NCBI GenBank assembly: GCA_905221615.1
Contig: CAJNDT010005556.1
Coordinates: 572,559-636,558 of the forward strand
Source: Symbiodinium sp. CCMP2592
Lineage: Eukaryota; Sar; Dinophyceae; Suessiales; Symbiodiniaceae
Direction of reading: 5' to 3'
DNA: 64,000 nt
Positions 29,601-52,122 of this stretch are shown here, piece by piece. The notes beneath the pieces are model-generated. The model ran no database searches and had not been told where the DNA came from. It saw only the letters and a list, made by a program, of their open reading frames with translations. Position 1 is the stretch's first letter; each line of letters opens with the position of its first letter. Made by a program: the position numbers and the translations under genes.

Positions 29601-32600
29601 TGCCGCGGAGAGGCGGGGAGCCCCAAGACCCATTTTACGTTGCCAGCGTGGCGGAGTAATTACTTTCCGGGAATAAATTTATACTATTATATAGTTTCCG
29701 GCGGAGAGCTTTGCGGGGTTGTGCTAGGATTCTACGCGGGAAAAGGGGTGAACATGCAGTGATCTCTCAACTTCATGTTGTATGGCGAACTTTCGTCCTG
29801 CGGTAGCGGGCATTCCGGGTGTTGCAGTCCTGGTCTGCACGAGAAAAAGAGGAGCCAGGATGGACCAATTAGGATGTGTTTCGGAAATCAGCGGGCATTC
29901 CGGGTGTTGCAGTCCTGGTCTGCACGAGAAAAAGAGGAGCCAGGCTGGACTAAGTAGGCTTTAGCGGAAATCAGCGGGCATTCCGGGTGTTGCAGTCCTG
30001 GTCTGCACGAGAAAAAGAGGAGCTAGGCTGGACTAATTAGGTTTTAGCGGAAATCACCACCGGGCCGAAAGTTTCGACATGCAGCTTATAACATAGATGT
30101 ATGCCGCGGAGAGGCGGAGAGCCCCAAGACCCATTTTACGTTGCCAGCGTGGCGGAGTAATTACTTTCCGGGAATAAATTTATACTATTATATAGTTTCC
30201 GGCGGAGAGCTTTGCGGGGTTGTGCTAGGATTCTACGCGGGAAAAGGGGTGAACATGCGGTGATCTCTCAACTTCATGTTGTATGGCGAACTTTCGTCCT
30301 GCGGTAGCGGGCATTCCGGGTGTTGCAGTCCTGGTCTGCGCGAGAAAAAGAGGAGCCAGGATGGACCAATTAGGATGTGTTTCGGAAATCAGCGGGCATT
30401 CCGGGTGTTGCAGTCCTGGTCTGCACGAGAAAAAGAGGAGCCAGGATGGACTAAGCAGGCTCTAGCGGAAATCAGCGGGCATTCCGGGTGTTGCAGTCCT
30501 GGTCTGCACGAGAAAAAGAGGAGCCAGGCTGGACTAATTAGGCTTTAGCGGAAATCACCACCGGGCCGAAAGTTTCGACATGCAGCTTATAACATAGATG
30601 TATGCCGCGGAGAGGCGGAGAGCCCCAAGACCCATTTTACGTTGCCAGCGTGGCGGAGTAATTACTTTCCGGGAATACATTTATACTATTATATAGTTTC
30701 CGGCGGAGAGCTTTGCGGGGTTGTGCTAGGATTCTACGCGGGAAAAGGGGTGAACATGCGGTGATCTCTCAACTTCATGTTGTATGGCGAACTTTCGTCC
30801 TGCGGTAGTAGTAGCATTCGCTGGCTTCCCCAAATTCGCTACTACTCGTATAAAGGAGCCCCAAATCCTATTCCAATTATAAAGGCCCCTTTTGCACATG
30901 TTAAAGGCCGGAAATGGCTGAAAACTGCTCGTCATCCGACCAAAGCTCATGGTGCTTCCACTTTTCCGGCCATGCCGGACATACTTGGAGGATCAGGGGA
31001 CTTAGTAAGTAAGGTTATAAGTACCTTAATTGGGGTTAGAAGTTGCTTTAAGTATAGTTACCTTAATTATAACCCTAGTTGCTAATTCCCATGATCCTTT
31101 ACGTAGCACCAGTAACAGCTTTGGCAATCATCCTCTTTCCTCGCCGCATGCATCGCCATTTTCTTCTTTTCATCATGTGAACATGACTGTGGTTATGATT
31201 ATTGACATGCTGTTGTTGTCATTGTGATGACGACGACTGCTTTCATGATCATTATGATGGTTTTTCATCCGGAAGACGACCTGGCATTGCTAGCAGGGGT
31301 AATGGTAGCAGGCAGCGGCCAATGGCAAGGCATATTTGGAGATCAAGAACTAGATGGGTGGGTAGGCTAGGGCAAAAGCGTAGCAGCAGCACGCTAGCAG
31401 CCCAAGAACGATGACCACAGTTTTTGTGTTCATAAACAGTTCTTGTTCGCATGAACGGCCTCGGAAGCAACAACAGGGATAGTAGCAGCGGACAACAAGG
31501 CAGCAACAGCGCAGACGTATAATCTGAAAACTTGCGTCGTTGGCTCCAGGTCGATGCCATGAAGAACATGCTGACCCAGTACCCAACAGGGTTGGTCGCC
31601 TGCGTCCTCGCCCCGGCTGAGATGATCTAGACGGATTAGAAATGTTCCATGTCGGAGTTTCCGAAAATTAGGGGTACCTTGTTTGGGGTCCTTATAATAT
31701 GGATCCTACTATTTAGGGTTCTATATTAGGGTCCCCTATTTTCGGAAACTCCCATATAGCTGTAAGCACACTCTGTCTCCCATGAAATTATGCCCAATCC
31801 CTACAATCCTCCCAGATTGGAAAGCAAGCTTTCACTGCCGGCCTAATAAATCCGAAATGCGCTTCGACCATGTTTAAAAGAGCCTAGTGTCCATGCGTGT
31901 ATGTATTTAATACGCATTTGTATACAGACGAACCAACGTCGTATGCATAATTGCCATGCGGATCTGAAACCAGGTGTTAGTGGGTGGATGGTTGGTAGGG
32001 GGCGGGTGGGCAGAGTAGGTGCATAGGCTTGGGAAAATATCGTCGCTGGAAAGCCCTTATCTTTGAGCTAACAAGGCACGGGGGCTTCCTTAGCCTGGCA
32101 GATTCCCTCAGTATTTACTCGGATTTGAGGGATTCTTACCCCGTTAAGCTCCACCCAGATGAGCGCCAAACTACGGGGAGGGGATTTACTGCCGAAAAGA
32201 CCACAACAGTGCTTTGCGGCTTCACACACTGGTCGTATCTTGTTGAACCCTAAACCCTAAACACAAAACCCTTAACCTAAACACTTTTGAAAGCACCGAA
32301 AGAAGCTTAGGCCTTGCGTAAGGAACATAGCGCAGACGTGTGCTCATGGACGAAATCCTGCATTATCCAAAATGAGGACTATGACTATTCTGTAAGTCCA
32401 CTGGCTTGAGGGATTTTGAGGCTACGGCTACGGCAATGCCAGTTTTTGTTCATTAGCAGTACCAGAGCCCTTGACGAAGAACCCCAAAGCCCAGGTCAGC
32501 GACTCCTTCGACGTTTTCAAGGCTTGCAAGGACGGCGGGCGATTGGCCAGGGACGAGAAGAACAAATTCTCTCAGTATCTAGAATACTAGGTAGGGCGTT

Positions 32601-35004: not shown

Positions 35005-38000
35005 AACCTGTACTTATATACTTCTATGAAAAATTTACTACAATGATTGAATCAGGTCTCCAATACCACAATAAGGATGGTCCTCTAATTAATTCCGAAA
35101 TGCGCGAGTACGTGGACCCCTACGGGACTTCCATAAGCAGAGCCCCCAGAAACCCTAAGCCCCAAGCTTGGGGGACCCCGACTTCCGACGACATCCCCAG
35201 GTGCGAGCAGTTCAAAGAAGATGCGGCTCGGACTCAGAGTGAAGCTGCTGCCGCCCTAAAACCTAGCCATACTGTACCTAGCCGGACGCGAGGGCTCATT
35301 ATTATTGTTTCGGGTTAAGGTTAACCTTAAACCCTCGCTTCGATCCTGAGGTGACCACCACGAAGACAGGTCACAAACTGCTGCCCGCGTACATCCGCGT
35401 GATTCAGGGTGATGGCAGGGGTCTCGGAACTTTTGTCGCCATGACCAAGTAAAGCCGGTTCAGCCTCCGAAGGTCAGGAACTATGCAGTTTTGGGCCACT
35501 AACTCGAGTAATTTGCTTATGGGCTTCAGTTGGTCCGGGGAGTGCGAAGTCTCGCCTAGGCGTCGACTACGAGTCAATTCCGAAGATCCTGCTTGGCGCA
35601 CAGCTCTCGCTTTGCTTTCTGTGGCATCCTTCATGGGTATGGTTGTTGCACGGAGCAGACCCTGTTTTGACAAGAGAGATGGATATCAAATCCTGGCGCC
35701 GAGGAAGTCGCTGAAGAATGCTGGCTTTGTCCCTTGCTCGGCATCATCTGCAGAATCGAAATGCTGGGCGAACAGGGACCTGCAAAGATGCTATATAAAC
35801 CTCGAGGTAAAATCCGGCAACAGGCTGATCTGCATGTTTCGGTGCTGCAACACTGTCACCGACATTTCAGGCTGCAGACAACATGGTCTTCGGAAGTGGT
35901 GGCGCGCTGCTGCAGAAGTTGAACCGAGACACCTTCAAATGCTCCCTGCCTGTTCTGCAGCATCTTCTCTACCAATCGCTCAATCAATCGATCAATCAAT
36001 CAATCTGTTTGTCTGTCTGTCTATCTATCTGTCTGCCTGTCTATCTGTCTGGGTCAATATCCATCTGCCCTGTCTATCTGTGTAGCTGTCTACCCATCCA
36101 TCATCCATCCATGTACATACCGTATCTGTCCACACATGCGTACATACCTACCTACCTACCTACCTACCTACCTACCTACCTACCTACACGCATACTTGAG
36201 CACAGATGTACTACATAGTACATCTGCACTCACAAAATTTTGTACATATGCATGTATGCAAGTATGCATGTTTGTGTGTTTGTGTGAAAATAACACCTCC
36301 CTTTCTCCCCCAGACTTTGCCAACCGTCGTTGGCTCAAGACCACTTTGCCCTACGAGAAAAGGCGCTGCTGAACTTCAGGGTTACTTTGGTCTAAGTCGT
36401 GTGAGCTTGTGCACGGAATTACTTTAGGGTAGTTTGGTGCGCATTCTGGACTAGTGTACTTTCGCATGGTAGCGGAGCTGAAAGCTCCACGGAACTTTGG
36501 TAGAACAACATGGCGCTAGGAGGTGAAGACAACTTTACAGGGAAGCTTCGGCTTCCTCTGCCAGAGACTTTCTCTGGGAACCCAGCAGACTGGGAAGAAT
36601 GGTCATGGAACTTTAAAGCGTACATTTCGATGTTCGAGGTAGGTGCTGTGACTTTGATGGACAATGCCGAAATGCGAACGGCAGCGCAAGGTGACTTTAC
36701 AGATGCTGATCTAACAGTCACTTTAGGCACAGGTGATGTTGATCCGGAACAGACCGCCAACCGAGTACTTTTCTCCCGAAAACTACATTACCTGATTTCT
36801 CAACTTGTGAAAGATTCGGCAAAACTTGTTGTTCGTCAGAACGAGGACAGCAACGGCTTTGAGACATGGAGGAGACTTTACAAGAAGTTCTCGCTGCCAG
36901 GAGCCACGCGGAGTACGTCACTTTTGACGCAGCTGTTGGACTTTAAGTTCAACCCAGCAACCTTTGAGCAGGACTTTAATGTTTGGGAGACAATCAAGAG
37001 TAGATATGAACGACAAGTAGGACAACCTTTGCCTGATGGTGTTCTTGTTGCAACTTTGCTGAACAAAACCTCTGGAGCTTTACAACAACACCTTAGGTTG
37101 AATGCCCAAACTTTGGCAACTTATGCTCAAGTTCGAGAAGTTATCCTTGAGTACCATAGGTCACGACTTTTGATGAATCCAGTTGCACAAACTTCGGCGA
37201 ATGCAACTTTTGCTGGTGGAGCCTCGGCTCCCATGGACATTGGTGCCTTAGCGGCAGCTTTGTGGAAAGGAAAAGGAAGGAAAGGAAAAGGAAAGAAAGG
37301 AAAAGGAAAAGGAAAAGGAAAAGGAAAAGGAAAAGGAAAGGACTTTTCGAAGTCGTTTGGAAAAGGAGGACAACATTGGAACTTTATGATGAAAGGAAAA
37401 GGAAGAGGAAAAGGAAAAGGAAAGCCCACTTCTGGTTCTACTTCGGTTTGCTGGACGTGTGGTAAAACAGGTCACTTTTCGAGCAACTGTCCTTTGAACC
37501 GTGTTTCAGCTGTTGAAGGTGAAGAACTTTACCCGTCGGAGGACGCAGGAGATTGGAATCACTTTGGTGAGTCCGATGATTGGACAGATTGGACCGAATG
37601 GGCCGTGAACGCGGTCACGGAACTTTACAACGACCCTAACAGTTGGGATCAGACTTGGGATGATCAACTTTGGTCTTGGGATGCTTGGTCCTGGGATGTT
37701 GACCCTTGGGGTTGGTCTTCGGACTTTACTTCAGAAGTTTGGCCTTCAGAGGCTGCTCCTTCGGCGAAGGCCGAAACTTTGGCGAAGCCCAAGGAAGAGG
37801 CTTCCTCGTCAAGCGGTGCGGCAACTTTGCCCGTGTCGGCTGTGACTTTGCAAGGACCACCTGGACTTTCAACCCCCAAAGCCAAGCCTAAAGCTAAAGC
37901 AAGCATCAGCCCGAGCACTTTGCTCATGTCGGCTGTTGTTCTCGGCAATTTTGGTTTGGGGAACACTTTCAGAGTTGATGGGATGACGAATGGAGTTGTA

Positions 38001-41000
38001 GACTTCAGCTTTGGTGGTTTCGGAGAGTGTGAGAACTTTGAGCCTACGGCCTGTATGGCACCGCTTGAGACTTTCTCCTTGAATGGTCGCACGGAGGAGA
38101 ACCAACGACTTTTCAGTGTTGGGGATCTTGATCTTAAGAATTTGAATACGACTTTCAAGGATATTGCTTTGGAGGAGCATTTGATTGCTTCGACTTTGGA
38201 GGACACCGAGCCGTGGATCCTCTTTGATTCAGGTGCTGCAACTCACTGTTGCCCGAAGGACTTTGCCTCGGAGTGGCCACTTTTGCCACTCACAGGGAAA
38301 GCTCCACCTTTGAGGAGCATTTCGGGTCAGCCTTTGACGGTCTTTGGAAGGAGACTTGTGAAGGTTGACTTTGAGGGCCAGCCCTGTTTCCTACACTTCT
38401 ACGTTTGCGACGTTCCCTACTGTGTGGTGTCAGTTGGCAGACTTTTGAGGTCAGGCTTTGACGTGAACCTTTCTTCTAAGAAGGCGAACACTTTGGAAAC
38501 ACCTGATGGACACAAGGTGCCCATCACTAGGCATGGTTCACTTCTTTTCTTGAGGCCCACTTTGGCACCTTTCAACCGAGAAGAGTTTGAGGTTGTGTGT
38601 AACACTTTTCACACACAGAGCGCACAAGGTACCATAGTGGCCCCCGTCTTTAGACCTGTCGTTCAGTATCACATTGATAAATGGGAGCTCTCGGGTAACA
38701 CTTTGACCCGCGTACACAAAAGAGCGAGAGCTACTTTCTTTTCTCCCGAAGGGACGAAAGATCGCCCTGTAGACCTGAAGGACCTTTCGGACGAACGCGT
38801 AACCTACTTTGAGTACGCAGATGGCAGAAAAGAGACTTTCACCGACAACTGGCGTAAAGCGGAGAACCCTAAAGGGCCTGCTCCTGAACGCTTTGTTGGC
38901 AAGACTGTTTTTAAACTTTCCTCCAAGCCCACTGGCCGCAAGCTGGTTGGAAAACAGACAACTTTACCTGAACCCACACCTGCACGCAAACCACAACCAC
39001 TTGAACAGCAGCAGGAACCTTTAGCAGAGGCCCCACAACCACTTTTCAAGCAACCCACTAAAGGCCTCAAGGAGCAAAGCACCGAGGACACTTTCCGTCT
39101 GCGCCTTGAGCAGACTTCTTCAGGAACGCTGGAAGACTTTCGGAAGGCTTTGCTTGAACAACTTTTGGAGAAGGACCCGGCAACAGGCCAGCCGTACACG
39201 CACGACTTGTGGCTTGACTTTCCGTCTTGCTGGGTGCGTGTCCACTACGAACAGCGGACCACACTTTTTGTGCCTGAGGATCCGCACTTTGAAGAGCAGC
39301 TTGGCGACGGTCGCATGACTTTGGTTGTGAGGCCCAACACGGAGGAAGTGCCCTTTTGGCATGCTGACAATTGGCGCAAGCGCGGCGCCACTTTGATCAG
39401 CTCTCCGTTTGTCGGCGCCACTTGTTTTGAGAAGGCAGACTTGCAACTTGTTGAGTGCGAGCTAGAAGCTCCTGACTATGTTGCGCGTCGCCCCCGCGGG
39501 CTTAAACAGCCTGGCGAGCCAACTTTGACGGAGCGGCTTGAACACGAGTTGACACACTTGCCGTTTAAGCCCTGGTGTGAAATTTGTGTGCGTTCCAAGA
39601 GCAAACAGGCTAAGAGTCGCAGACTTTCCCTGAAGCAGCCTGTGCTGCAGATGGACTTTAGCTTTCTTGGCGACAAGCCTGGTGAGGAACAGATCACGAT
39701 TTTGAATTGTCGATGTTCTTTCCGGCATGGCACTTTCTGTTGATCCCCACCAAGGCCCGCACACCTTATTCACAGGCTGAACTTCGTCGCTTTGTGCTTG
39801 AAACGGGCAGAACTTTCGGTGTGTTGCAAGCGGACCCCGAACCCGCCCTCCTCGCTATTGCAACTTCTGTCACTGGTGAGGTTGGTGGACTTTCCTTTCG
39901 GAAGACGCCCGTCGGTTGGAAACAAGCGCAAGGCAGCGTCGGTAACATGCAGGCCACTTTGTACGGCCAGATCAAAGCTTTGCGCCTTGACATCCTTGAG
40001 CGCTTTGACGTGGACCTTTCGGTGCACTCGGCTTTGTTTACTTGGCTTGTGCGTCACGCGCAGTGGCTTGTGAACCGTTACCTTTGCAACGCGGAAGGAA
40101 CGACGGCTTTTGAGCGGCGCTGGCGTAAGAAGTATGCCGGCTTTATCTGTCGCTTTGGAGAGACAGTACTTTTCCGCAAGCCGCATCCGCAGAAGGGCCG
40201 TGCAGCTTTTGTGCCTGGTGTTTGGCTTGGCAAGGACACTGAGTCTGATCAGCACTTTGTTGCTGACGCCACCGGCGTCTTTAAGACCCGCAGTGTCAAG
40301 CGCCACCCGCCCTCCCGGCAAGCCGACCTTGCACTTTTGCAGTCGATCTCTGCGCGTCCTTGGGACCCCACCGGTTCGAAGGCTGAGACGGACACTTTTG
40401 TCTTTCCTCAAGCCAAGCGGTCCGAGGAGGCGACAGCAGCTGACCTTTCGAACTTTGAGCAACACGAGTCGACTGAGCCACTTGCACCAGAAGCTTTGCA
40501 AGAAGTTGAAGACTTGCTTGGTGACGACTTTGGCGGTGATGAGCCAGAGGCGGTACCGCCAAGAGACGACTTGTCGGACTTGGAGTCTTTGGCTACGCCT
40601 CCTGACCTTGACACCTTTGAGCCACCGCACGTCACTTTGGACCAGCAAGCACAGGGCCTACCACGGTCCGCAACGGAAGCAGCTTTGCCGCAACCTGCGG
40701 CTACACGGCCTCGACTTGAGGAGGCGTCTGCTTCTTCTCCGACAAAGCGTACGTCGGAGACTTTGCCTGTTGGGACAAGCAAGGTGCAGAGAATGGCCAG
40801 CGTAACTTTTGCGAAGACCAAGAAGCGCTTTCGCGTGTGTGACTTTCGTGTCTCTGCTGTGACAACAAAGCAAGACCTTGAAGTACCGGTGTCGGTTAAT
40901 CAAGATGAGAAAGAACTTTTGTTGATGAAGACACTTGAGAATCCGCACATTTGGTACCAGACCGAGTTCACACGTGAAGAGGAAGCTGCAGGCATGACAA

Positions 41001-44000
41001 AAGAGATGAAGTCGATGCGTGACTTTGACGTGTTCGACGAAGTCTCAGTTGAGTCGGTCTCGGAGGAGACTTTGCGGTCTGCAATTTCCACGAAGTGGGT
41101 TAAAGTGCGCAAGCCTGACGGGACAGTGCGCTGTAGGATTGTTGGGCGAGGTTACACTCAACTTGTGGAAGACAAGGATGAGACTTTCGCCTCGACCCCG
41201 TCCTTAACCACACTTCGGCTGTTGTTGACTTTGGCTGTTGCGAAGGGATGGCACATCTCGATCGGAGACATTTCGACGGCATTTCTTCATGCCCTGGTCG
41301 ATGGTGACTTTTATGTCATTCCTCCCCTGGAATTCTATCCAGAGGGCCGCACTTTGTGGAAGCTCAAGAAAGCCCTTTACGGACTTAAGCACAGCCCTAA
41401 GCTTTGGCAGCAGCACTTTGCATCTGTCATGGAGAAGAACGGCTTTCGACGCATGAAGTCGGACCCGAACCTTTATGTACATGACAGCAAGCAACTTTAC
41501 GTTCTGGCGTATGTGGATGACTTGATGTTTTTCGGTTCGCGGGCTGATGTTTCGACTTTGATCCGGGATCTTCAGAAGGACTTGTTGCTTAAGGTGACAG
41601 GTACTTTGGATGAAGGTCAGAGTTCGTCGTTTCTAGGCCGCAACCTGAAGCGCACCTCCACTTTCATCTCTGTAGGAATGAGCCCATCCTACATTGATAC
41701 GATGCTAGAGCTTTACGGTTTGAAACAGTGCCGGCAGGCACTTGCTCCAGGAACGGATGCTTTGAGGAAGCAGCTCGACTGTGAACCTTTGGACCCTGAG
41801 GATCACAAGCGCTACCGGCGCGCTGTGGGCCAACTTTTGTGGCTTTCCAGCGTGCGCCCTGACATCATGTATGCTGTCAAGGAGTTGAGCCGAGGACTTT
41901 CTGCACCGACCACAGAACGCGAAGCAAAGGTCAAGCATCTTTTGAAGTACCTGGCAGGAACAAAGCACTTTGAGCAGAAACTGCAACCAACCCTCTCACT
42001 TTCACCGCAGCACAAAGCAATAGACATCAACATTTTTGTTGACAGCGATTGGGCAGGATGCCACGACACCCGACGCTCCACTTCAGGAGTTTCCCTCTTT
42101 GTGCTCGGGGCGAATATACTTTCGCACAGCAGGACCCAGGCCACTGTGGCCCTCTCGAGTGGAGAGGCAGAACTTTACGCTATAGGCTCTGGTACTGCTG
42201 ACGCTCTTTTTGTGAGGTCTTTGGTGGAAGAGAGCAAGATCTTTCAGAAGGCTAACCTTTGTGTTTTTACAGACAGCAACGTTGGCAAAAGTATTGCCTC
42301 ACGTTTCGGCGCCAGCCGCAAGACGAAGCACGTAGAGTTACGATATCTTTATGTGCAAGAACTTGTTGCTTCTGGTATGGTTAGGATTAAGAAAGTTCTT
42401 GGTACTTTGAACCCAGCAGATATCCTTACGAAGTATATCGCGAAGGAGACTTTGCACCGCCATCTTCCTACTTTCGGGTTTGAGGTTTAGCCACCCCATC
42501 TCGGGTTGGACTTTGCCACTCATCATCTTCCCCAGAAGAACCCAGATGAGAGAGAAGAAGACTTTGAGAGCTGAGAGAATCACGTTCTTGCGGACATGTA
42601 CTTTTCATGCTTGTGCGGACATGTACTTTTGCGGACATGTACTTTTGCTTGCTTGTGCAGTCTCGACATGTCTTCGACTTTCGCTCGATTTAGGAACTTT
42701 CAGTTTTCCGGAACCAACTTTGAAGGTGACCTTTCTGTTTTCCGTTTTCTCCGTTCCGAAAAGGAAGAAACTTTTACCGTGAAACCTTGATGGTGGATGA
42801 CTTTTCCGATGATGGTTTTAAGGTGCAACGGCACCACTTTTAATGTACATATGTAAGCTCACTTGACTTTCCCGTTCAGGGTGTTCGGGTTTTGTCGTGG
42901 GTTTTGGTTTTAACTTTGCGCCTTTTCGTCGCCACTTTCGTTCTGCGTTGCCCGTTTCACTTCGACTTTGCCTAACGGATGGAGCCGGCATGGATGCCAC
43001 AGAGGTGGTGACTTTGCTGAGATCTTGCCGTGTGACGGTACTTTCGGTGGCACGCTGGTACAGGAACCGAACTTTGTGGTTCCGCCTTTGGGAATTCCTG
43101 AGGCCTTTTTGTGACCCGACTTTGGTCACTTCGGGCCTCACTGGAGGACCTTTTGGAAACGGTCAACTTTGACCGCCGGCTGCTCGCTGACATTGCCCGT
43201 GCGAGGCAAACAACTTTTCTGGAACAAGGTGATCTGGAAACTCTGGCTGAGTCGGAGACTTTTCTCCGAAGGGAAATCGCGGACCAGCACTTTTGGATCA
43301 GGTTACTTTATCGGTTATCTGTTCCTCTGCAACCTTTTAGGTCTGAGCTGCCCTTCTGGACGAACTTACAGTTCACTGCGTTTTTCAGTACTTTTCTTTT
43401 GTCCTTGTCTGGAGTTGTGGAGCAACCCTGGCTTGGAGGAGCAAGGCACTTTCTGCAATTGCTCTTTGACGCGTACGCAGCTTACGCACTTTTCTATTTG
43501 AGGCGCTTTATCAATCAAGAAGTGCCGGACCTGCACATTTGGCCGGTGCTGCTGTGGAACTTTCTGCAGCGATGGCGCCAAAGACTTTGAGGCCGCCTGC
43601 CACTTTGCCGCCATCGATTGAGCGGCCACGGCCTGGCCATGGTTTTGGTCAGGGGACTTTTGTCCCTGACTTTTCGAACTTTGGCTTTTGGGGCACTTTG
43701 CAGCTTATGCTTGAGATGCTTTTTGGTGGCCGCCAGATGGAGCAGTTGTTTCGCCCTGGGACAACTTTTGACAACAACTTTGTCCTGGGAAAGTCGATAC
43801 TTTTCCCTGGGTTGAGCCCGGTGTCGCCAAGCATGACGGCACCCGAACTTTACATGTTGATGCGCAGCCAACTTTTCTGGGTATTCCATGTGAGTCCGGG
43901 GAGCACTTTGCCAGGCGATCCTTCGGCATGGTCGCCCTTCATGTTATATCTTACTTTGCCAATGAGCGTTTTGGATAGAGCCTTGACCGCTGCCCGCCAG

Positions 44001-47000
44001 AGTGGAACTTTTACAGTTCACTTTCAGGATGTGGTGGGTACTTTGGAGAATTGCCTGAACATTTCCTTTAGCCCACGGTCGGCTTATCTTTTCTACACTT
44101 TCCAGCTGTCGATTTCTCAGATGCAGGGAGTGACTTTTCCTTTTGCTGCCAATGAAGAAATCGCTACGTTTGGCTTCCGACCAACTCAACATTGGTTGGC
44201 AGTCAACTTTGGAAGTGGACAGGCGAGGATTTGGAACAGGAGGTACGTGGACTTTCTGGTGAAAGTCGCGACTTTGCAGATTCCAATGCAGCCTACTTTT
44301 CTGACTTTTTGCGTGGTGAGACACTTTGGCCAGGCACCGTACACTTTGGTCGGCGATCTCAATCGCTACTTTGATGGTACATATGGTGTGCAGTGTCGTC
44401 ACTTTCGACTGATGCACCTGCCGATCCTCCCAGAGGTGTACCAACTTTGTGAGGATATGCCCGAGGGCTGGGTGCCCCTCGCTGGCGCTACGCCGTCAAC
44501 TTTGACGCGCCCTGCGAGGTTGTGAAGGCCACTTTTCGCCTTTCGAGGTTGGGCCAACAGCACACTTTTCGGCGTCTTTTGACGCTTGGTGCCACTTTGG
44601 TTGCTGCACTTAGATGGGCCAACCACTTTTGGGCCACGCTGCACTTTGATGTGCCGTGCGCAGTCACGACACTTTGCACCACGAGCACTACGAACGCTTA
44701 CTTTTACAAGTCAACTTTTGAGGTTGTAGATAGGAGACCTCGTTGCAACTTTCTCCGAGCAGCTGCTTTGCAAAACTTTGGCCGTGAGCTCACACATGTA
44801 CATGTACACTTTTATGTGTTATTGTACTTTGCGAGAATAAAGTAGTTAACTTTAATCTCGAGGAGGCGTGTGAAAATAACACCTCCCTTTCTCCCCCAGA
44901 CTTTGCCAACCGTCGTTGGCTCAAGACCACTTTGCCCTACGAGAAAAGGCGCCGCTGAACTTCAGGGTTACTTTGGTCTAAGTCGTGTGAGCTTGTGCAC
45001 GGAATTACTTTAGGGTAGTTTGGTGCGCATTCTGGACTAGTGTACTTTCGCAGTTTGCGTGTGTGCGTGCATGTGTGTGTATGTATGTATGTATGTATGT
45101 ATGTATTTATGTATTTATGTATGTATTTGTGTGATGTGTCATTGCTTGTTGTTTTTTGTTTTGTTTTGGTGTTTTCGTGTGTGTGTGTGTGTGCATGTAC
45201 GTACGTACGTACGTAGGTAGGTAGGTAGGTAGGTATGTATGTATGTATGTATGTACGCATTTGTGTGATGTGTCATTGCTTGTTGTTTTTTTTGTTTTGT
45301 TTTGGTGTTTTCGTGTGTGTGTGTGCATGTACGTTAATAGGGGTATACACACAGCCGGCGCTACTCACATTATGTTGCATTGAGCTGCATTGCATGCAGT
45401 TCGCGATTGCTTGCGCTGTCTCATTGCTGCCCTGTGGTTGGGTCAGTTTAGTCGAAACCATGACAAGGTACAAGTCATAATGGGAAAAACTGCAGCAATC
45501 TGTGACCCAATAGGTAGCAGCGTTAGCACCGCTGGAGTGGCGATTCTTCTGCAGCCACATTTACCGGAGTAGGGCGGTAGTCTTAGTGGCTTTGCCACTG
45601 TGACCTTGAATAATATATTCAATTTTCAGCATCTCGGGTGCGTCTCAGACCTGCATTTGCTCCCACCACTTACAGCCCCAGGCGCATTCAAGTGCTCCGA
45701 GATCACGGTCAGCGGCGAGAAGAGGGAGGTGTTCAAGGACAGTGCTTGTAGTCCGTACTTTCGGGTTGAAGGTGGTTTGGCGGCTGTGAGATTGTGACGG
45801 AAGAGAATGAAATTCCAGGTATTGACTCGAGGCAGCCTGCGCAGCTCGGATCCGCATTCTTCGGTGGAGTCAAGCAGAAAGTGTGACCTCTTTAATGCAA
45901 AAACGCCTTTCTGCAACGTAAATGAAGACTCCCCATACCAGCTTCATCAGCAGGCACGTAATTCTGAGACTGAGCAGCCATGTTGCGCTAGGTCCGAAGC
46001 TACACTAACATTAATAGTAATCATCATCATCAACATAACAACACGAATACCAACAAAAACACTGAGGAGCAACTCCAAATCCCAAGGCCCAAAATCCTGG
46101 ACTCGGAGCCTTAGTCTTTGACTCGCCTTGGTCTTCGACTCTCAAAAGCCATCCTAAGCCCTCAGTCTTACAAACCCCAAGGCTAGGCTCGCCAGGTCCG
46201 ACATGCACCAACAGACCCCAAGGGCCAAGCAACCCAACGAAAGCTGTAGTATCGGGGCCTTAACAATTCGAACAGGGATTGGGGGGTAACTTATTATCAT
46301 GATGGTACGATATCCCCAAAGCCTCTTCTTATGATTATTGAAGCCCCTACAGTAAGCCCTAAAGGCCAATGGCTTGGCGACACGTATGAGCCCAATACCC
46401 CAGACAATCCGACGCAGGCCCTGCATGATTCCTCAGACCCGAGATCCTAAACCACCGCAATCGTAAGCACCAAGCTCACCGGCCTTTCGGCTGCGAAACA
46501 CCCAAACCCTAAACCCCATCATTCGTGCAGCGTCAGTATACCCAAAGCTCAGAAGACTGTCTAAGGCCCTACAGACCCTAAACCCTGAAAGCCCAAAGCC
46601 GAAATCCGTAAATCCAAACCCCTAAACTCCAAACCCTGATTAAGCCCCAAAGCTTGACTCGTACTAGCCCGTAAGCCCCAAAACCCGAGACCCTGAACCC
46701 AAAACCCTGAAGGTCCTACAACGTAAACCTTGAACCGGAAGCATCCTAAACTCCTGAAGCCCTAACCCGCAAACTCCCTAAACTCACTAATCCCTAAACC
46801 CTAAACCCCCTTTTTTCAAAAGGCCAAACAGACTTAAAACCCGAGACTACCCATTTACAAGACTACGCGAGGATCCGATCACCGACAAGGGCAAGGCCTC
46901 GAAGAAGGGCCGACTCACCGTTCAGCAACTCGGGCTCGGGATTTTAGAGGTTTTAAAGGGGGTTATAGGAGGGTTCCTTTAAAGGGCTCCTTAAGGGTAC

Positions 47001-51910: not shown

Positions 51911-52122
51911 CCTAAACCCGAAACTTTGAAACTTAAACCCCCACTTTAAACTCCTAAACCCGAAACTTTGAACCCTAAACCCCCGCTTTAAACTCCTAAA
52001 CCCGAAACTTTGAACCCTAAACCCCCACTTTAAACCCCTAAACTCGAGACTTTCAACCCTAAACCCCCACTTTAAACCCCTAAACCCGAAACTTTGAACC
52101 TTAAATCCACTTTAAACCCTAT
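51911..52122. repeat. 42-bp tandem satellite, about five copies
   Basis: Unit starts CCTAAACCCGAAACTTTGAA and continues with CCCTAAACCCCCACTTTAAA. Copies begin at 51911, 51953, 51995, 52037 and 52079. Each unit contains two CCTAAAC motifs and two ACTTT motifs. Confidence 0.92.

Follow-up and report, generated by a model that had tools for sequence, protein, structure and literature searches.

In Symbiodinium sp. CCMP2592, a copia-type long terminal repeat (LTR) retrotransposon of 8,770 bp is saturated on its sense strand with the pentamer ACTTT. The element lies at positions 36283-45052 of the 64,000-bp stretch that was analysed (contig CAJNDT010005556.1, positions 572,559 to 636,558; hereafter the window). 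Other copia elements of this genome are filled with other short words, and the DNA evidence thus reveals that the word differs between families within one nucleus. The word very probably constitutes a code that is under selection and specific to each family. Each copia family would own a saturating sense-strand word of four to five bases (ACTTT, ACTTC, ATTG, and probably ACTG), which would be held by selection on the nucleic acid of each copy during replication and would be free to drift once the copy is inserted.

Saturation of the element with ACTTT

The original prediction, based on a count by eye, had noted about 175 ACTTT and about six AAAGT sites. The exact counts are 175 and 6, and strand specificity is upheld. 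The 55,230 bp of the window outside the element were correctly described as sparse in the motif, with 61 ACTTT (1.1 per kb) and 46 AAAGT. ACTTT is the top pentamer of the element, and the runners-up CTTTG (106) and GACTT (67) overlap it. The motif was said to occur in LTRs, coding and non-coding parts, in agreement with densities of 27, 15.7, and 29.4 per kb in the 5' LTR, gag-pol, and the 3' region, respectively.

Dinucleotide shuffles of the element (n = 200) yielded 32.6 ACTTT on average and 54 at most. In synonymous-codon shuffles, which preserve protein and codon usage (500 per coding piece), the mean and maximum were 19.0 and 31 for the first coding piece, compared to 59 observed, and 10.8 and 19 for the second, compared to 34 observed. 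ACTTT occupies each of the three codon phases as predicted (25/18/16 and 16/8/10 in the two pieces), and 93 of 129 places (72%) at which the protein permits ACTTT carry it, compared to approximately 8% for the median pentamer. Chance, codon usage, and amino-acid usage as causes are ruled out by the shuffles, as the original prediction had presumed for codon preference.

The opening ten spacings (29, 41, 37, 37, 36, 38, 35, 43, 41, and 43 nt) are exactly the near-regular series that was initially read. Spacing over the element is more even than expected by chance, with a coefficient of variation (CV) of 0.65 (simulated 99% range 0.82-1.17) and only 6 gaps below 15 nt, compared to 38 expected and 25 in the lowest of 2,000 simulations. 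No fixed period was evident in pair distances, i.e., only the spacing is even. Bases flanking ACTTT are hardly informative (0.13 bit or less).

Other copies of the ACTTT family

A search of the 1.098-Gb assembly with the LTR as query returned at least 41 places (best candidates), including the window's own two. Twenty other stretches were read; two LTRs are present in 19 of them, and the remaining one has a single LTR match. All 20 contain 159-177 ACTTT sites; the copy with 159 (L050) is clipped by the range read. Among the copies read, none keeps the protein and lacks the motif.

In case of seven copies, 3' segments that are not alignable as DNA to the 3' region of the window element nevertheless harbor 28-34 ACTTT per kb. 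The segments of L034, L036, L041, L045, and L047 (approximately 495 bp) contain 16-17 sites each, that of L048 (950 bp) contains 27, and that of L049 (1,466 bp) contains 41. The accessory gene ORF4 of L048 and L049 is only 36% and 32% identical to that of the window element at the amino acid level and 47% and 42% at the nucleotide level. The numbers of ACTTT sites are almost equal (28, 27, and 29 in L048, L049, and the window, respectively), and merely 5 and 2 columns are in common with the window. Density is thus kept while the sites move. Since gag-pol of L048 and L049 is approximately 96% identical to that of the window element, whereas ORF4 is very different and ACTTT is kept, the word tracks gag-pol among the element proteins.

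Two copies, L044 and L045 (G000:C2535:135570-152979), are direct neighbours in opposite orientation, and only 2 bp separate their outer LTR ends.

Selection during replication

Gag-pol variants were classified in an alignment of 21 copies as private (one copy) or shared (two or more copies). Shared variants hit 4 of 90 ACTTT-holding alignment windows, compared to 17.2% of the other alignment windows (p = 5e-4; since overlapping windows are not independent, p-values of the variant tests are rough), while private variants hit 16 of 90, compared to 18.4%. At third codon positions, shared variants were found at 1 of 133 positions inside and 153 of 1,571 outside ACTTT (p = 5e-5), although the two-/threefold class also counts codons that lack a synonym, and these would diminish the effect. 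For private variants the corresponding fractions, 8 of 133 and 135 of 1,571, do not differ significantly. The conservation of ACTTT beyond the encoded protein, for which the original prediction had proposed a test, is thus observed, as third codon positions within the motif are kept among copies. Because shared variants spare these positions and private ones do not, selection presumably acts while the elements replicate. The variant pattern gives statistical support to a feature that is needed in cis during replication of the element and is useless after insertion.

Other families and other words

Further families were found by a reverse transcriptase (RT) search of the same genome. Five elements were read in part, two of them (L051 and L052) at length. 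The RT of L051 is 57% identical to that of the window family, and both LTRs were found. Its 8,066 bp contain 199 ACTTC, 3 copies of the reverse complement, and 6 ACTTT. In its gag-pol, 109 of 135 permitted places carry ACTTC, compared to 4 of 96 for ACTTT. L052, with an RT identity of 52%, contains 289 ATTG, 25 copies of the reverse complement, and 3 ACTTT, counts that take in the beginning of a second element at the 3' end (last 0.7 kb, gag-like frame); 177 of 256 permitted places carry ATTG. No LTR was found in its 9,501 bp. Both words are evenly spaced, with a CV of 0.585 in L051 (99% range 0.85-1.16) and 0.573 in L052 (0.78-1.03). L053, a broken relative, has 43 ATTG and 2 copies of the reverse complement in 1.5 kb.

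In two decayed RT pieces, ACTG and its reverse complement occur 24 and 1 times (L054) and 33 and 2 times (L055), and ACTG ranks third and first, respectively, among 4-mers over dinucleotide shuffles. ACTG is therefore probably the saturating word of a further family. The original prediction had proposed a search of copia families for the same or another saturating pentamer; that families of the same genome carry different words (ACTTC, ATTG, and probably ACTG) was not foreseen.

The second gag-like frame behind the ATTG element (L052, 8815-9501), which also carries CATTG/GATTG, possibly belongs to a neighbouring element. Two scans of viral contigs yielded no independent elements.

Footprints of the words in element proteins

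For each word, the number of places at which it could be encoded by a given protein was set against the expectation from amino-acid frequencies. ACTTT ranks 2 of 1,024 in the window family (129 places, 80 expected) behind ACATT, since near-synonymous pentamers score together; ACATT also outranks ACTTT in the pool of the ACTTT clade. ACTTC ranks first in L051 (135, 62 expected), and in L052 ATTG leads the 256 words of four letters (256 places, 191 expected). The excess is even greater in ORF4, with 164 compared to 90 and 269 compared to 132 for ACTTT (two pools), and 63 compared to 19 for ACTTC (L051). The word thus biases the protein sequence of the element. As controls, 43 proteins of at least 900 amino acids gave a median best z of 4.72 forward, 3.40 reversed, and 2.77 shuffled, and a best z of at least 5.5 was reached by 14 forward and 1 reversed.

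Tree scoring covered 70 of 120 listed homologues (at least 700 amino acids; the best 120 of 3,196 proteins) and three proteins of this genome, 71 of these 73 being in the RT tree. As judged from protein sequences, footprints group by RT clade. Single clades are formed by the ACTTC rows (7 rows, 100/99), 14 of the 15 ACTTT rows (100/100), the ACTG rows (3 rows, 100/100), and the CAACA rows (12 rows, 93/68), and AGCTT/AAGCT marks a nine-row clade (100/100). The word changes 14 times on the tree, compared to 44.5 times with labels shuffled, although the rows are not independent because inherited protein sequence gives near relatives common footprints. Exceptions are given by P0032, which has an ACTTT footprint and is located outside the ACTTT clade, by P0092, which carries an AAGCT label and is placed near the ATTG rows, and by the two ATTG rows, which do not form one clade and of which the label is strong in L052 (4.7) and weak in P0047 (2.6). 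For 20 of the 71 rows, no word was observed at z of at least 2.5.

CAACA (P0098), AGCTT (P0114), and ACTAC (P0085) are predicted as further words from protein footprints alone. The clade of P0015 and P0056, sister to the ACTTT rows, exhibits weak footprints of AACAT, GACGT, and AACTT and possibly has one more word.

Structure of the element and its surroundings

The element displays hallmarks of Ty1/copia, i.e., paired LTRs with TG...CA ends and a short target-site duplication, an RVT_2 reverse transcriptase (PF07727, 117.9 bits, cut-off 31.6) and a Gag zinc knuckle (zf-CCHC, 25.5 bits, cut-off 20.8), so that its initial assignment as copia-type holds. Homologues that are named among the matches listed come from Symbiodinium species. 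Retrotran_gag_2 matched Gag with 15.4 bits, below the cut-off of 27. Pfam integrase models gave no match at E<=1; the integrase-like part upstream of the RT was recognized by inspection. Features are compiled in Table 1.

Table 1. Features of the ACTTT element and positions in the window.
Feature	Position	Strand	Basis
175 ACTTT sites across LTRs, untranslated and coding parts, mean spacing 50 nt	36283..45052	+	Count, shuffles, spacing simulation
Target-site duplication GTTTG, left copy	36278..36282	.	Sequence
5' LTR, 184 bp, TG...CA, five ACTTT	36283..36466	+	Sequence
Putative primer binding site TGGTAGCGGAGC	36467..36478	+	Sequence
Open frame, 1077 amino acids: Gag (Lys/Gly-rich stretch, single CCHC zinc knuckle) followed by protease-like and integrase-like parts	36510..39743	+	Pfam; last two by inspection
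Open frame, 927 amino acids: remaining integrase-like part, RVT_2 reverse transcriptase, RNase H-like part	39707..42490	+	Pfam
Accessory ORF3 region, interrupted in the window copy (159 amino acids open from 43111)	42990..43590	+	
Accessory ORF4, 317 amino acids, 29 ACTTT sites	43572..44525	+	Open frame, copy comparison
Putative polypurine tract GAGGAGGCG	44860..44868	+	Sequence, inference
3' LTR, 184 bp	44869..45052	+	Sequence
Target-site duplication GTTTG, right copy	45053..45057	.	Sequence

Due to the single difference between the two LTRs and the identical 5-bp flank on either side, the insertion is considered recent. Gag-pol is broken in the integrase-like part of the window copy, since the 927-amino-acid frame differs from the upstream frame; in at least seven other copies it is stop-free over 1987-2005 amino acids. 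ORF3 comprises 199 amino acids in L031 and L032. The sequence following the 5' LTR presumably resembles the primer binding sites of copia elements.

The 5' LTR contains a polypyrimidine tract with AG and TTGGCTCAAG, which corresponds to the terminal ten letters of the dinoflagellate spliced leader as given in excerpts of PMC12014239 and PMC6050394. In both LTR types (window 36283-36350; L051 453-545), the polypyrimidine tract with AG is followed by a short inverted repeat and by the spliced-leader end, of which, by comparison to the excerpted leader, 10 letters are identical in the window LTR and 9 in the L051 LTR. From its sequence, the LTR looks as if it may keep a relic of a trans-spliced leader or splice acceptor.

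The 3' accessory genes (window 42900-44525) are swapped as modules among copies that are otherwise 95-99% identical (L034, L036, L041, L045, L047, L048, and L049). Two dissimilar types of ORF3 occur, and ORF4 types share 32-50% identity. ORF4 had no significant match to Pfam or to folds of the Protein Data Bank (PDB). An RNA recognition motif (RRM) had been guessed from its helix/strand order; no RRM was among the fold matches listed, which does not exclude one.

Outside the element, ACTTT recurs in steps of 501 bp at 29662-30791 (29662, 30163, 30664; 29789, 30290, 30791), which suggests a tandem repeat of approximately 500 bp, and in a small cluster with steps of approximately 20 bp at 51923-52109, probably a tandem repeat as well. 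The window with the element masked contained no further copia remnants at E<=1e-5 (tblastn with 13 proteins, blastn).

Candidate readers of the word

A role at the RNA level had been suggested for ACTTT. Strand specificity, independence of codon phase, and conservation at third positions give good support to a role of the nucleic acid of the sense strand; the words of the other families argue against one host RNA-binding protein and favour a family-specific code. According to the favoured explanation, the word would be a recognition code and its reader a protein encoded by the element. The likeliest reader would be Gag, via its zinc knuckle and the Lys/Gly-rich nucleocapsid part. Gag would coat its own RNA by binding weakly at many evenly spaced positions, so that this RNA would be packaged in preference to cellular RNA or RNA of other families. 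A drift in the specificity of the reader would lead to a rewriting of the word along the whole element. On the basis of sequence, packaging by Gag/nucleocapsid may be the purpose of the word with about an even chance, and the explanation as a whole (family code, self-encoded reader, most likely Gag, packaging) could equally well hold or fail. It is tempting to speculate on a heritable, switchable self/non-self code, for which we see the balance as even: each lineage would carry a 4-5 base word every 30-50 nt, read by its own Gag or another self-encoded reader, families would coexist without cross-packaging, and drift of the reader would entail the rewriting of approximately 200 sites and the re-spelling of the proteins.

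Several observations weigh against this explanation. The reader is inferred only, and no Gag residue covarying with the word was established in three Gags displayed side by side. Predicted local folds indicate no preference of ACTTT for unpaired positions beyond composition (probability 0.58, compared to 0.55-0.58 in shuffled context). Shared variants no longer show a significant deficit when three more distant copies are omitted (4 of 93 compared to 7.2%, p = 0.41), and for 13 close copies the 3' region likewise reveals no significant deficit (1 of 66 compared to 122 of 2,141, p = 0.18). Retention of ACTTT in five copies (726 of 756, compared to 86% for all pentamers) reaches only rank 11 of 169. 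Furthermore, the ACTTC and ATTG families are each represented by one copy read at length, and ACTG rests on two decayed RT pieces, with rank 3 in one of them.

Alternatively, the words might be read by the host, either by an RNA-binding protein or by a pathway of decay, export, splicing, or silencing. Families would then rely on different host factors to stabilize or export their RNA, to evade silencing, or to suppress splicing. Sense-strand, phase-independent selection in cis would look identical in this case. A single host reader of one specificity is insufficient, though, because families of one genome carry different words, so that several factors would be needed, and host sequence in the rest of the window is poor in ACTTT. 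We consider a host reader unlikely. A distinctly unlikely alternative is that the word serves reverse transcription or integration and is recognized by the RT, RNase H, or integrase of the family in RNA, hybrid, or cDNA. The even spacing and the fact that the word tracks gag-pol as a whole, not Gag alone, are compatible with such a reader, but saturation of LTRs, untranslated, and coding parts alike exceeds the need of priming at a single place. It is improbable that ORF4 reads or marks the word, e.g., as a nucleic-acid-modifying enzyme; its models are faintly similar to ADP-ribosyltransferases (Tpt1/KptA, PARP, DarT), without a significant Foldseek match.

Under a mutational attractor, error bias of the family's RT or editing would keep generating the word, and strand specificity and differences between families would be expected as well. 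Of the alignment windows one mismatch away from ACTTT, only 2 of 131 in gag-pol (one private, one shared) and 2 of 29 in the 3' region (both private) had gained the word, counted in copies of recent origin only. Losses and gains involve many different neighbour words, and shared variants avoid destroying ACTTT. A mutational drive towards ACTTT is thus unsupported, and we regard it as very improbable. An origin of the word as a side effect of codon or amino-acid usage or of local repeats can practically be dismissed due to the shuffles, the use of all codon phases, and the equal density in non-aligning DNA, despite a unit containing ACTTTT in three copies near 42.6 kb and the overlap of ACTTT with common codons.

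Comparison with known systems

How retroelements recognize their own RNA is an old question, and the usual answer is one structured packaging signal. If the favoured explanation is true, self-RNA recognition would be spelled openly in the sequence, would be family-specific within one genome, and would be readable even from the proteins. The pairs of reader and word (ACTTT, ACTTC, ATTG, probably ACTG, and the predicted others) would offer natural material for studying how nucleocapsid-type proteins read short RNA words. The word further indicates selection on the nucleic acid that is strong enough to bias the amino-acid sequence over an 8-kb element.

Single short words also reach very high density across a genome or a set of genes in the case of DNA uptake sequences, Chi sites, and PATC repeats, which are DNA signals read by host machinery. 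Unlike these, the word described here is confined to the element, resides on the sense strand, and changes by family.

Ty1/copia retrotransposons of Symbiodinium (P0010, P0014, and others) share up to 92% RT identity with the window family among the matches listed, and their protein sequences suggest that they carry the word as well. A saturating word is not described for them in the portions of the literature that were accessible. The same applies to the accessible literature on dinoflagellate copia elements, on ACTTT or ACUUU in retrotransposons, on LTRs that contain spliced leaders, on dispersed packaging signals, and on motifs that are over-represented, a body that includes few subscription papers and preprints.

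In possible function, the nearest kind may be the dispersed packaging signals of RNA viruses, which, according to abstracts and excerpts, are known for MS2, parechovirus, enterovirus E, and hepatitis B virus nucleocapsids (PMC6281560, PMC5431903, PMC4751978, PMC7793301, PMC7612645). As far as these sources reach, both systems have many copies of a short motif over the RNA, including its coding parts, which are thought to contact the coat protein. Dispersed packaging signals comprise dozens of sites, or motifs in the loops of stem-loops, whereas the element uses an exact word of four to five bases, 20-30 times per kb. Unlike the signals outlined there, this word shows no structural presentation beyond composition in predicted local folds, biases the proteins, and is family-specific within one cell. 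By analogy, the mechanism may prove to be that of dispersed packaging signals taken to an extreme. The saturating word nevertheless represents, in a comparison by abstracts, a new kind rather than a variant, since it is dense and exact, biases the proteins, and varies among families.

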